The notes under the pieces are model-generated. The model made no database searches. It had not been told where the DNA came from and was given only the letters and a program-made list of their open reading frames with translations. Shown here piece by piece: positions 45,884-50,402 of a stretch of 64,000 nt of DNA. Source of the stretch: Fabrea salina (lineage: Eukaryota; Ciliophora; Heterotrichea; Heterotrichida; Fabreidae); the NCBI GenBank assembly GCA_022984795.1, contig JALIHJ010000038.1, forward strand, positions 62,001 to 126,000. The letters are read 5' to 3'. Position 1 is the stretch's first letter. Each line of letters opens with the position of its first letter. The translations under genes were made by a program, and so were the position numbers.

Positions 45884-47401
45884 TTACAAGCACTCTTCTT
45901 CAAGCAATCCTGCGTACCTTTCCATGCCAGGTTTTCTTCCGTCAAAAACTACTTCAAGTTGGGTGTCTCTAAGCACAGTGTCAAGGTCAGCTCCATACTC
46001 AAGAGCGTACTCTACGTCTATAACTCCTCTGATTAGGTCTGAGTTGAGTTTTTTCTTTTCTTGTGAAGTGGCACTGATGCTAGGTGACAAGTTGGCTTCG
46101 ATGTACCACACATTTAAGTTGTTGTCAACTAAAAAGTCCATGCCCATCAGCTCAAAGACTCTGGGGTGTCTTAGAAGCTTGTCTAAGTTCATCCGCACAA
46201 TGTGGAACATAGTTAGTTTGATCTTTTTTTTCATAACATTTTCCATCCACCCTGGGTAAATGACCCCTTTGTCCAGCATGTAGTTTTCGAAGTGGGCATA
46301 ACTCCAGCCCTGGTCTTCTAAAAGCAGTTTTTGTTGTTCAGGGGTCAAGTTTTTGCTTTCCATGCTTGCTTTAGCTACTTTGATGTTAGTTAAGTGCGAA
46401 GTTTTGTCGTTGGACTCTGGGTCCCACTCAGCCATAGACATCCTTACGAACCCGTCGTGGTAAAGAATTATAAGAGGGTCCATGCTTGCTATGAACATGT
46501 ATGCTCTGAAGTCAAACTTGTGGCCTTCTATAAGCATAGGGTCGGCAATGTACCACTGGGCTAGGTACCCTTCTTCCCAAGGACACTCTTCCTTGATTAA
46601 AAGCTCTTCTTTAGTTTGCTTGTCCAGAACATCTACTCCCTTTCCATTGTGGGCGTACCTGCTTTTTTTAATCATCCAGTTTATTTCGGAGGAGTCGCGC
46701 TCCTTCTCAAGTATACTTAGAAACTCCCTGCACTGGCCTTCTTGAGTAAGGTCCAGAGTGTAAGGCATGATTTTCCAGGGATCGAAGCAGTGCTCCCTTC
46801 CCTTGTAGTAATTCGCGTATTCACGGAACATGTTGGCTGTAAGGTCTTTGTAGTTGATCCAAGCTATTCCTGGAATGTGGTTGTACCTTTGGCCCTTGCA
46901 CAAAAAGTGCTTTTCAATAAGGTGGTTGGCGTGCCACCTGGATTTAACTACAAAGAACAGGTTGTAAGCAGGGCTGAAAGGAGGATGCACTTTTTGGTTG
47001 GCAATTTTAGGTTTGTAAGTCATGTTGGTATACGTTTGGAGAACTTGTCTAGGAACTTGTTCTGTCTGGTAGTCAGTGCAGGTGTTTCTGTCCCTCCAAA
47101 TAGGAATTCCTTTGGAGTCGAACTTTATGGGGTTTGCTTTTCTGTACTCCTCTACCTTTTGGCAGTAGTTATCCTCGTTAGCAAAGTCTACTTCTTTTTG
47201 GAGTTGGAGTTTGTCTGTGTATTCTTTCCAAGGCTCAGATTCATACCAAGGAGGCCTTGGAGCGTCTTCGAAAAAAGGTACTGAAATCACCTTGTCAGAA
47301 AAAGCTAGGGGGCCTTCTGACTGCTTAGGATACACTGTCATCATAAGCAACAAGTTAAAAACAAAAGCCCCAGTTAATATTGCTTTTATTCCTATAAACA
47401 T
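45884..47401 (-). CDS. TTL-domain amino-acid ligase with N-terminal signal anchor (copy A)
   Basis: A 505-residue protein. Residues ~5-24 are hydrophobic (IKAILTGAFVFNLLLMMTVY) after a single Lys, a signal anchor or signal peptide. The rest is a tubulin-tyrosine-ligase-like ATP-grasp domain: WMIKKSRYAHNGKGVDVL (nucleotide loop), WYIADPMLIEGHKFDFRAYM, YHDGFVRMSM, DKTSHLTNIKVAK and GMDFLVDNNLNVWYIEANLS with the metal-binding Glu and Asn. Cytosolic TTLLs ligate Glu, Gly or Tyr to proteins; with this anchor the domain should face the lumen or exterior. Extra cysteines (REHCFDPWK) fit an oxidising compartment. About 3 kb from its paralogue. Confidence 0.85.
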   Translation of the reverse strand: MFIGIKAILTGAFVFNLLLMMTVYPKQSEGPLAFSDKVISVPFFEDAPRPPWYESEPWKEYTDKLQLQKEVDFANEDNYCQKVEEYRKANPIKFDSKGIPIWRDRNTCTDYQTEQVPRQVLQTYTNMTYKPKIANQKVHPPFSPAYNLFFVVKSRWHANHLIEKHFLCKGQRYNHIPGIAWINYKDLTANMFREYANYYKGREHCFDPWKIMPYTLDLTQEGQCREFLSILEKERDSSEINWMIKKSRYAHNGKGVDVLDKQTKEELLIKEECPWEEGYLAQWYIADPMLIEGHKFDFRAYMFIASMDPLIILYHDGFVRMSMAEWDPESNDKTSHLTNIKVAKASMESKNLTPEQQKLLLEDQGWSYAHFENYMLDKGVIYPGWMENVMKKKIKLTMFHIVRMNLDKLLRHPRVFELMGMDFLVDNNLNVWYIEANLSPSISATSQEKKKLNSDLIRGVIDVEYALEYGADLDTVLRDTQLEVVFDGRKPGMERYAGLLEEECL

Positions 47402-47441
47402 TATAAGCTATTGATAAGAATCTATATTCAAAGTTGTTAAG

Positions 47442-48776
47442 TTAAACTAAGAAAGCGTAGATGGAGCTAAGGATAATGAGTGAGGCAGAATCCTCATCAG
47501 CAGTTTCTCCATCAACCTCGACTGTAGTGTCAAGGCTAGTTTCGTCAATGCTTTCGTAGGAGTCAAAGCCCCCATCTTCTGTATAGGTGTATGTAACAGA
47601 ACTAGAAAGTCTTCTAGATTCTTCAACGTCATTAGGGTCAGCAACATCGTCTGGCCTAGGTCCTAGTCCGCCCTCGCCTTTAGGAAGTTCTTCGCAAATG
47701 TACTTTTTACAGTCTTCGTCGTTTTCACAGACTTTTTTGGTGCTTTCAGTGTCTACTAGGCCTTCAAGGTCTTCTGGCATAAAGTCATCTTCAGTTACTT
47801 CGGAGTTTTCAGTTGCTTCATTTTTGATCTCAGCTTCAATGGCGTCTTTGCTTTTCTTGATCTCTGAAGGTAGTTCGTCTTGGCTTTTCATGTACTCGGT
47901 ACAGTCTTCTGAAAGTTTGTCGCAACTGTTTTGGTTTAGCTTTACGTTGATTTCTCCGCTAGAGCCTTCGGAGACGTAGTTTTCCCAGTTGGGGTCGCAT
48001 CCCATGCACAGCATTCCTGTCATGTGCTTCATGAGTCCTTTGATGCACTTGGCTCCTTTTTTAGCATGGTCTTTCATTTTGTCGTTCATGCCTCTAGCTT
48101 CTTCTTTGATCTTTGCTTTTCGTTCATCTCCCATTTTGTCAAACCCCCCTCTTTTCCTCCTGCGTCCTCTGTCCTCAGGTCTGCCCCTTCCTTCTTCTTT
48201 TAGTTCTTCGTCTTCTTTTTCTAGGTCTTCTTCTCTGTCTTTGTACTCATCTCCTTTAGGCAGTCCTTTGCCGTCTTTATCGTCTAACTCTTCGGGTGAG
48301 CGTTTTCCTTTTCCATTTTCCTTTTGACCGTCTTCTTTTTGGCCATCTTGTAATCTTCTGGTTTCGTTCTTGCCCACATAGTAGCCATCTTTATCATACT
48401 CATCGCCGTAGTCCTTTTGGTTGTCAGGGTCGAAGTCATTGAAAGTATCCCTGATCCTACCTCCGAACTCGTCAGTTTTGTTTTCGTTTTTTCCTTTCTG
48501 TTCTTTGAAGATAGCCTCAATCTGAGCAACTGTATTTGCGTCGCAACAAGAAAGAGTGCTATCTCGAAGTACCTTTGAACAGAACTTCAAGTCCTCTGAG
48601 GATACCTCTTGAGGAGTGCTTAAGTAAGCAGGCCGTGTTCCTAGGCTCGAATCCCAGTCCTCAGCTGAGTAAAGGGGGTTGTTGCAGTTAGCTTGGGTTT
48701 GGTTAGTTTCTTGGGCCCAGCCTAAAAGTAGAGCTAGGCAAAATGCAAACAAGGTATTTTTCATTACAATGGCCAT
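47442..48776 (-). CDS. Secreted acidic, probably GPI-anchored protein
   Basis: A 444-residue protein with a signal peptide (MKNTLFAFCLALLLGWAQE from the fifth residue) and a hydrophobic C-terminus (SASLIILSSIYAFLV) without following charges, a GPI-anchor-type tail. The middle (~85-190) is very rich in D, E, K, G (DFDPDNQKDYGDEYDKDGY, EDLEKEDEELKEEGRGRPED). Cysteines occur in clusters (STLSCCDAN, GMLCMGCDPNW). Family unrecognised; the composition suggests a surface or storage/calcium-binding protein. It lies between two TTL-domain ligases, on the same strand. Confidence 0.75.
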   Translation of the reverse strand: MAIVMKNTLFAFCLALLLGWAQETNQTQANCNNPLYSAEDWDSSLGTRPAYLSTPQEVSSEDLKFCSKVLRDSTLSCCDANTVAQIEAIFKEQKGKNENKTDEFGGRIRDTFNDFDPDNQKDYGDEYDKDGYYVGKNETRRLQDGQKEDGQKENGKGKRSPEELDDKDGKGLPKGDEYKDREEDLEKEDEELKEEGRGRPEDRGRRRKRGGFDKMGDERKAKIKEEARGMNDKMKDHAKKGAKCIKGLMKHMTGMLCMGCDPNWENYVSEGSSGEINVKLNQNSCDKLSEDCTEYMKSQDELPSEIKKSKDAIEAEIKNEATENSEVTEDDFMPEDLEGLVDTESTKKVCENDEDCKKYICEELPKGEGGLGPRPDDVADPNDVEESRRLSSSVTYTYTEDGGFDSYESIDETSLDTTVEVDGETADEDSASLIILSSIYAFLV

Positions 48777-48869
48777 TTATTCATGGCCTTTTATGTTTAA
48801 AGATGAAACGGTGATTTAACTGTCCGAGTTTTTTCCAGTGAAATTATACTTAAACACCTCACTTAAGAA

Positions 48870-50402
48870 TTAAAGGCAATCCGGAGTTAAGAGTCCACTA
48901 TACTTATCGAAACCTTGCTTCCTTTCGTCAAGGACCCACTCGAAGTATGTGTCTTCCAGCAACTTGTCGAAGTCGGCTCCATGCAAAAGACCAAACTCTA
49001 AGTCAATAATTCCTTTGGATAACTTGGAATTGAGTTCTTTCTTCTCCTTAGAAGTTCCTGAAATCTGAGGCGACAAGTTTGCCTCGATGAACCAAAGGTT
49101 AAAATTGGTGTCCATCAGAAAGTCAAAACCCACCAGTTCAAAGACCCCGGGGTGCTTCAAAAGGTACTTTTCGTTCATGAGTGTCAGGTGCAGCATCATG
49201 TTTTTGATTTGAGTTCTGAGCTGGTTGATCCAGCCTGGCTCGACAAGACCAACTCGCACCAAGTAGTTTTCAAAGTGGTTATAGTTCCAACTTTGGTCCT
49301 GAAGTGCAAGTTCTTGTTGCTCCTGACTCATCTTCTTAGAGTTCAATGACGTCTGGGCTACTTTGAGGTTAGTCAAGTGAGAAGTTTTATCAGTGGAATT
49401 AGGGTCGAACTTAGACATCGACAGTCTAACGAAACCGTCATGATAAAGAACCATAAGAGGGTCCACGTTTGCAATGAGCATATAAACTCTAAAGTCAAAC
49501 TTGAAACCTTCAATGAGCATTGGGTCTTTGATGTACCGCTGCCCAATGTAGAGTTCGTCGAAAGGACAAGGAGTTTCCAGAATCACTTCAGCTACAGGCT
49601 GAGTAACTATTCTAACTCCGCTTCCTCTGTGGAAGTCCCTGGGCTTCTTAACCATCCACCTTATCTGGGGGTCGTGCAGGCTTTGCTGAAGGTAGGACTT
49701 GAACTCCAAACACTGTTCTTTCACAGTTAAGTCCAGAGTTTGAGGCATGATTTTCCAGGGATCGAAGCAGTGCTCCCTTCCTGAATAGTACTCTCCGTAC
49801 TCTCGCATGGTGTTTGCGATCACGTCTTTGTAGTTGAGCTTCTCTGCTCCAGGGATGTGGTTGTACCTTTGGCCTTCGCACAAAAAGTGAGTGCCTATTT
49901 TGTGGTACCTGTGCCAAGTGATGCGTCGGTTCATGAAAAGAGAAATTCTAGGGTCGAACTTTTCAGCCTTCACTTTTTTCTCTGAGTTTCCGGGTTGGCT
50001 TTTGAGGTTTGCAAGTGTAGTGTAGTTTGTTATGACCTGCTTTATTAACTGGTAATCTGGGTACTGAGAAAATACAACTCTGTCTTTTTTAACTGGAATT
50101 CCTCTTTGATCAAAAGTAGCCTTGTGGTTTTCCTTGTATTTCTTAACCCTTTCGCAGTAAAGGGGGTCGTTCTTGATGTTGTTTATAGTTTTGGTCAGGG
50201 TGAGGCTTTCTAAGTAGTTGATCCAAGGAAGGGATTCATTCCAGTTAACTTTTTGTGCAAAAGAGACTTCAGAAAGAGTGGCTCTTAAGCTTGGAACAGT
50301 CTGGAGTTCTTCTTTGGTGTGTTCAGACTTCATCAAAAGTAAATACCCTACCAAACTGAAGTTCAGCAAGAAGGATACTAGTACAATAATCTTGTAGTCC
50401 AT
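48870..50402 (-). CDS. TTL-domain amino-acid ligase with N-terminal signal anchor (copy B)
   Basis: A 510-residue paralogue of the 45884-47401 protein. Residues ~5-24 form the hydrophobic anchor (IIVLVSFLLNFSLVGYLLL). Shared blocks are HFLCEGQRYNHIPG, REHCFDPWKIMPQTLDL, WMVKKPRDFHRGSGVRIV, YIKDPMLIEGFKFDFRVYML, DKTSHLTNLKVAQTS and GFDFLMDTNFNLWFIEANLS. Catalytic residues of the TTL ATP-grasp fold (Lys, Asp-Phe-Arg, Glu-x-Asn) are kept, so activity is likely. The substrate is unknown; the lumenal location is inferred from the anchor. Confidence 0.85.
   Translation of the reverse strand: MDYKIIVLVSFLLNFSLVGYLLLMKSEHTKEELQTVPSLRATLSEVSFAQKVNWNESLPWINYLESLTLTKTINNIKNDPLYCERVKKYKENHKATFDQRGIPVKKDRVVFSQYPDYQLIKQVITNYTTLANLKSQPGNSEKKVKAEKFDPRISLFMNRRITWHRYHKIGTHFLCEGQRYNHIPGAEKLNYKDVIANTMREYGEYYSGREHCFDPWKIMPQTLDLTVKEQCLEFKSYLQQSLHDPQIRWMVKKPRDFHRGSGVRIVTQPVAEVILETPCPFDELYIGQRYIKDPMLIEGFKFDFRVYMLIANVDPLMVLYHDGFVRLSMSKFDPNSTDKTSHLTNLKVAQTSLNSKKMSQEQQELALQDQSWNYNHFENYLVRVGLVEPGWINQLRTQIKNMMLHLTLMNEKYLLKHPGVFELVGFDFLMDTNFNLWFIEANLSPQISGTSKEKKELNSKLSKGIIDLEFGLLHGADFDKLLEDTYFEWVLDERKQGFDKYSGLLTPDCL

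Follow-up and report, generated by a model that had tools for sequence, protein, structure and literature searches.

Enzymes of the TTL family are regarded as writing the tubulin code in the cytosol. The locus described here raises the question of whether such enzymes can also work on the other side of the membrane, in the lumen of the secretory pathway. It lies in a 64,000-nucleotide stretch of the genome of the heterotrich ciliate Fabrea salina (contig JALIHJ010000038.1, positions 62,001 to 126,000; hereafter the window, with positions counted from its first letter). The locus consists of three genes on the minus strand (Table 1). The outer two, TTL1 and TTL2, encode TTL-domain proteins with a hydrophobic N-terminus, and the middle one encodes an acidic, Cys-rich protein of secreted type. 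An initial annotation of the window had proposed that the three form a lumenal system adding Glu or Gly side chains to secreted surface proteins. From the analysis below we consider it probable that TTL1 and TTL2 are members of an old family of anchored, disulfide-held enzymes that would ligate an amino acid, Glu or Gly being the likeliest, to secretory or surface proteins in the lumen.

TTL1 and TTL2 are members of the TTL/TTLL superfamily. Both match the Pfam family PF03133 (TTL) above its cut-off of 20.1 bits (TTL1: E 2.5e-43, 148.8 bits; TTL2: E 1.5e-40, 139.7 bits), and both also match the ATP-grasp family PF14398, barely over the Pfam cut-off. Beyond these two overlapping domains no Pfam domain exceeds its cut-off in either protein, and neither has a match in NCBIfam. 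The two proteins are 48% identical to each other and belong to the TTL-type ATP-grasp fold. Checked column by column, the catalytic Lys, Arg, Glu and Asn that the initial annotation had listed are present in both. The wider set (K245, K295, D297, R299, R320, D422, E435 and N437 in TTL1 numbering) is kept in all 24 anchored proteins of the joint alignment described below, with one Lys at R320 as the only departure. The anchored proteins are predicted to be ATP-dependent amino-acid ligases.

A six-frame search for TTL domains covered the 18.3-Mb genome (103 contigs), and all 47 matches were sorted by open frame into 16 intact anchored genes, one degenerate anchored gene and 30 unanchored matches. 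The intact anchored genes comprise class 1, to which TTL1 and TTL2 belong (13 genes; 471-511 amino acids (aa) counted from the first Met), and class 2 (three genes; 533-551 aa). Each of the 16 has one hydrophobic segment and none has a second. Hydrophobicity was expressed as the mean Kyte-Doolittle value over 17 residues (KD17). Within the first 80 residues the best KD17 ranges from 1.78 to 2.68 for the 16 anchored proteins and from -0.32 to 1.26 for the 30 unanchored ones, without overlap, with the caveat that N-terminal exons of some unanchored genes could be hidden by introns or by locus ends. This separation argues that the anchor is more than a product of chance. Two protein homology searches, both of which needed shared exact words, extended the comparison to database proteins, and the homologue sets are the matches listed. 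The named close relatives of the TTLs are proteins of Fabrea salina and Blepharisma stoltei. The anchor is present in 21 of the 26 class-1 homologues (P0001-P0026), in 14 of the 21 class-2 homologues (P0034-P0054) and in all seven TTL homologues named as Blepharisma stoltei (KD17 1.52-3.14). The hydrophobic start that had been described for TTL1 and TTL2 is therefore shared with paralogues in the genome and with every one of the seven Blepharisma proteins; on the sequence evidence, the lack of such a segment in orthologues, which the initial annotation had listed among the outcomes that would refute it, was not observed. In the class-1 anchor most sequences have a Lys close to the start and an Asn midway along the hydrophobic run; this unusual polar residue might have a role in retention or oligomerisation. 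The degenerate gene (L043:4479-5780, contig C23) is split into two open reading frames (ORFs) by an in-frame TAG and still has its hydrophobic N-terminus; it was counted in no alignment.

The side of the membrane on which the catalytic domain lies was judged from the charges that flank the segment. With the free N-terminus counted as +1, the N-terminal flank carries more positive charge than the 15 residues that follow the segment in all 13 class-1 genes and in two of the three class-2 genes, and the same bias is seen in 13 of 14 further class-1 homologues, the remaining one being a tie. By the positive-inside rule this bias would place the catalytic domain in the lumen. A single N-terminal anchor (16 of 16 genes) with a more positive N-side (15 of 16) is the architecture of a type II membrane protein. 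A reverse anchor, N-terminus out and C-terminus in, would leave the TTL domain in the cytosol to modify tubulin at, for example, cortical or endoplasmic reticulum (ER) membranes. Such an arrangement would agree with the cytosolic location of the characterised TTLLs known to us, with the more positive C-flank of L045 and with the three ties that appear if the free N-terminus is not counted. It is very unlikely in view of the opposite charge bias in 15 of the 16 genes and of six cysteines, described below, that few or none of this genome's unanchored TTLs possess. To the extent that sequence can show it, the charge bias favours the lumen and not the cytosolic orientation that the initial annotation had named as fatal to its proposal.

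In class 1, counts of N-glycosylation sequons lean the same way. The 13 class-1 genes have 50 sequons against 38.9 expected (z 1.8), 19 class-1 homologues, a set that leaves out the near-copies P0001, P0002, P0004-P0007 and P0020, have 80 against 55.0 (z 3.5), and the 30 unanchored TTLs have 121 against 126.6 (z -0.6), all z scores being drawn from related sequences that are not independent. The reversed motif S/TxN, counted as a control, occurs 38, 69 and 128 times in the same three sets and seven times in class 2. The excess is modest and is weak evidence for a lumenal location.

The strongest evidence for a family that would reside in the secretory lumen is a pattern of six Cys columns. The class-1 alignment holds 29 proteins, namely the 13 of the genome and 16 of the 26 from the databases, the near-copies named above and the fragments P0013, P0024 and P0026 having been left out. 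Of the 200 cysteines in these proteins 169 fall in six columns (Cys 1 to Cys 6), which in TTL2 correspond to residues 83, 175, 212, 231, 279 and 509. The 30 unanchored TTLs have one conserved Cys column, which holds 22 of their 276 cysteines. When 57 proteins are aligned jointly, every one of the 24 anchored proteins has Cys in all six columns apart from L037 and L039, which are without Cys 3 and Cys 6. The extra cysteines that TTL1 and TTL2 had been noticed to share are these six family-wide positions. Cys 3 and Cys 6 are absent together, as the loss of a disulfide pair predicts; the Blepharisma relative P0008, which groups with L037 and L039 at a bootstrap of 100, keeps both. We infer that disulfides form in the anchored TTLs, and the pairing 1-2, 3-6 and 4-5 is proposed, where 4-5 is based on how strands and helices follow one another in the predicted model and 1-2 on the cysteines that remain. 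The mitochondrial intermembrane space is also oxidising, and a single N-terminal anchor with paired cysteines would fit a protein held in the inner membrane with its TTL domain facing that space. This location is highly improbable, since the N-terminal flanks of the 16 genes are 4-8 residues long, none resembling an amphipathic presequence, and since the class-1 sequon excess, though weak, would be unexpected there. Together with the conserved anchor, the positive N-side, the weak sequon excess and the intact catalytic set, the six cysteines suggest that the TTL domains of the anchored family are most likely lumenal or extracellular, which is where the initial annotation had placed the ATP-grasp domain.

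Several observations weigh against a lumenal location and function. The anchor is missing from five of the 26 class-1 and seven of the 21 class-2 database homologues. These proteins are mostly short and appear N-terminally incomplete; the exception is P0014 (504 aa), which moreover has Cys 3 without Cys 6, in a protein whose C-terminus diverges as if mis-predicted. If the N-terminus is not given its +1, 12 of the 16 genes obey the charge rule, with three ties and one reverse case (L045). The three class-2 proteins show no sequon excess (5 against 8.6 expected, z -1.4), and the control motif is somewhat high in the class-1 homologues, so that part of their excess may be due to composition. In class 2 an Ala replaces the Asn of the HLTN motif (N339). 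The columns of Cys 3 and Cys 5 are mostly gaps in the unanchored TTLs (27 and 25 of 30), and the absence of the cysteines there therefore reflects an unaligned segment. The joint loss of Cys 3 and Cys 6 counts as one event, since L037 and L039 arose by segmental duplication and P0020 shares about 95% identity with each of them. After the stop of L037 and L039, one of the three frames reads into a short Cys-containing end, which overlaps a neighbouring ORF on the opposite strand; in the gene's own frame the bases after the stop hold no ending resembling that of the other members. A spliced last exon could still be hidden there.

A maximum-likelihood tree was computed from 57 domains and 276 columns (residues 165 to 470, some Cys columns included). 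The anchored proteins together with P0055 form a single clade, split from all others with an ultrafast bootstrap of 94; the values are 96 for class 1 and 100 for class 2. Sub-lineages pair genes of this genome with a Blepharisma gene (L040 with P0021, L032 and L034 with P0019, L037 and L039 with P0008), which implies that the family diversified before the two genera split. P0055 (612 aa, 28% identical to class 2) is anchored and carries the full catalytic set; its cysteines number exactly six and occupy the six columns. Two further proteins, P0027 and P0057, are like the anchored family in having a TTL domain (PF03133) and an N-terminal hydrophobic segment, but lie outside the clade. P0027 (E 5.7e-13) has a Cys at column 6 only, and several catalytic residues are missing. 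P0057 (E 6.2e-21) has Cys in columns 1, 3, 4 and 6, one beside column 5 and none at column 2, and its D422 and E435 columns are unaligned. It would be either a distant relative of the anchored family or a second invention, and it hints that lumenal TTLs may extend beyond the anchored clade.

According to the mechanism that we propose, TTL-fold ATP-grasp ligases would have been relocated into the secretory pathway in an old heterotrich family. The short positive N-terminus and the one hydrophobic segment would serve as a type II anchor, the whole catalytic domain would lie in the ER or Golgi lumen, outside the cell or inside a granule, and three disulfides would hold its fold. Lumenal ATP, which Golgi kinases also use, would drive the joining of a free amino acid, through an isopeptide or peptide bond, to a carboxylate of a protein in the secretory pathway, at the surface or in extrusomes. 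The compartment, the amino acid and the substrate named here are those that we infer for the anchored TTLs. PF08449, which we take to be a carrier family that includes ER ATP importers, is strongly matched twice in the genome, with stops within the matched sequence. In being type II, disulfide-bonded, ATP-using modifiers of secretory proteins, the anchored TTLs would resemble the Fam20C-type kinases of the Golgi and secretory pathway. They are not members of that group, which has a kinase-like fold and transfers phosphate, whereas the anchored TTLs are ATP-grasp proteins that would ligate amino acids.

Compared with TTLL6, TTLL7 and TTL, which are cytosolic, the anchored family is predicted to be lumenal and adds the N-terminal anchor, the six cysteines and a longer class-1 P-loop. 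Judged by eye, this loop exceeds that of solved TTLLs by one residue (K+8 to the first Gly, against K+7), which may mean a different pocket. Ligation of small carboxylates is common among ATP-grasp enzymes, and 16 intact members would fit diverse substrates; the targets of lumenal enzymes of this fold might thus be small molecules or short peptides, for instance those of pigment or extrusome granules, and not proteins. We regard this as unlikely, because the closest solved relatives, again TTLL6, TTLL7 and TTL, act on tubulin and because the TTL-typical residues are kept in the anchored family. To our knowledge, no one has looked for glutamyl or glycyl modification on secreted or surface proteins. 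Among the matches listed from the open-access literature, outside which most subscription papers lie, there was no account of lumenal or secretory-pathway TTL enzymes, and a term search of a review of polyglutamylation gave no instance of 'lumen', 'Golgi' or 'extracellular' (PMC9117372). The TTL enzyme family is known; its predicted secretory compartment and the anchored architecture are new to us.

The protein encoded between TTL1 and TTL2 has the signal-peptide-like start, the acidic character (24% D/E against 14% K/R) and the hydrophobic C-terminal tail, resembling that of glycosylphosphatidylinositol (GPI)-anchored proteins, that the initial annotation had described. It contains 13 Cys, and an alternative upstream Met is possible at 48776. 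The homologues P0028-P0032 share the signal-peptide-like start, the Cys framework and, where complete, the hydrophobic tail; P0030, which comes from the Fabrea salina transcriptome MMETSP1345 and is near-identical to a protein of this genome, stops short of the tail. Pfam gave no family for the window protein even at E 10, NCBIfam gave only a match far below the cut-off, and no sequence of a solved structure matched at E 1 or better. The predicted model, with a mean predicted local distance difference test score (pLDDT) of 50, is unusable. The folate receptor family PF03024 matches three of six aligned members of the acidic family below threshold (best E 0.0059) and the window protein not at all, and P0029, at 16.5 bits against a cut-off of 29.8, falls short of membership. 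The GPI-like tail is common to both families, the profile match is below the cut-off, and a GPI-type, folate-receptor-like Cys-rich module is possible in the acidic family. Matches to a bacterial TcaA domain (E 0.0045, one of six members) and to LED repeats (E 3.3, two of six members) were taken as chance and rejected.

The shared strand, the tight spacing and the secreted-type, acidic nature of the middle protein would suit a dedicated trio in which TTL1 and TTL2 glutamylate the protein between them, and the TTL1/TTL2 pair is probably kept in another assembly (homologues P0001 and P0006). However, the linkage of the three genes, whose lack of conservation the initial annotation had listed as a refutation, is not conserved within this genome. 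A whole-genome search found three copies of the acidic protein, in the window, on contig C86 (two ORFs) and on contig C32, a further match at E 0.17 being at chance level. The six-frame search gave no TTL matches on C86 and C32, and the surroundings of the 11 other intact class-1 TTLs yielded no copy of the acidic protein; we conclude that within this genome the trio is a local arrangement and not a conserved system. The acidic segment is not conserved either, as P0029-P0031 and the C86 copy show it as Glu-rich repeats and it is largely missing in P0032 and the C32 copy. None of the five acidic homologues among the matches listed is named as Blepharisma, against seven of the TTLs, and only one of the five carries any name. 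A dedicated trio is thus quite unlikely, and this part of the initial annotation was not upheld. The acidic protein is probably merely a neighbour of TTL1 and TTL2 and at most one possible substrate among many. Its C86 copy (L047/L049) has long ETMVEETEAMQN-type repeats with NxT sequons, and the repeat number differs among P0029, P0030 and P0031.

Elsewhere in the genome, L041:3273-6311 (contig C81) holds two anchored class-1 TTLs in direct tandem, with 12 bases between the open frames and no intervening gene. Two segmental duplications of recent origin, L033/L035 and L037/L039, also carry anchored TTLs. Very large secreted-type Cys-rich ORFs adjoin the duplicated TTLs (L033: 1301 aa, 38 Cys; L037: 1201 aa, 71 Cys; L039: 1188 aa, 80 Cys), all of them truncated by the ends of the examined stretches. 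A neighbour gene family shared across the TTL loci was considered and rejected, since apart from the two segmental duplications only common families (small GTPases and kinases, judged by eye) recur.

Table 1. Features of the TTL1/TTL2 locus, in positions of the window
Feature	Position	Strand	Remarks
TTL1, class-1 anchored TTL-family ligase	45884..47401	-	505 aa ORF
TTL1 hydrophobic signal-anchor, residues 7-23	47333..47383	-	KD17 2.11; N-flank +2 (free N-terminus counted), C-flank 0
TTL1 Cys 1 (C80)	47162..47164	-	29/29 class-1; 0/30 unanchored (11 gaps)
TTL1 Cys 2 (C168)	46898..46900	-	29/29 class-1; 0/30 unanchored (2 gaps)
TTL1 Cys 3 (C205), proposed partner of Cys 6	46787..46789	-	27/29 class-1; 1/30 unanchored (27 gaps)
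TTL1 Cys 4 (C224)	46730..46732	-	29/29 class-1; 0/30 unanchored (no gaps)
TTL1 Cys 5 (C273)	46583..46585	-	29/29 class-1; 0/30 unanchored (25 gaps)
TTL1 Cys 6 (C504, penultimate residue)	45890..45892	-	26/29 class-1; 2/30 unanchored (14 gaps)
TTL2, class-1 anchored TTL-family ligase	48870..50402	-	510 aa; PF03133 E 1.5e-40
TTL2 hydrophobic signal-anchor, residues 5-21	50340..50390	-	KD17 2.32; N-flank +1 (free N-terminus), C-flank -1
Acidic Cys-rich secreted-type protein	47442..48764	-	440 aa ORF; probably neighbour only
Acidic protein, signal-peptide-like N-terminus, residues 1-18 (end approximate)	48711..48764	-	hydrophobic run; also in homologues
Acidic protein, acidic stretch, about residues 152-193	48186..48311	-	ETMVEETEAMQN-type repeats instead in P0029-P0031; mostly absent in P0032
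Acidic protein, hydrophobic GPI-like C-terminal tail	47445..47489	-	also in P0028, P0029, P0031, P0032 and the C32 and C86 copies

For the biology of these ciliates, it is conceivable, and we say so with less than even confidence, that heterotrichs glutamylate or glycylate proteins in their secretory pathway by means of about 16 disulfide-stabilised type II TTLs, with secreted, surface and extrusome proteins as targets. If this is true, a 'lumenal tubulin-code' chemistry would operate off tubulin, perhaps tuning charge and calcium binding. Secreted and surface proteins could then receive side chains of glutamyl or glycyl residues, or some other ligated group, and the anchor together with the six cysteines would provide a clear sequence signature for finding such enzymes elsewhere.

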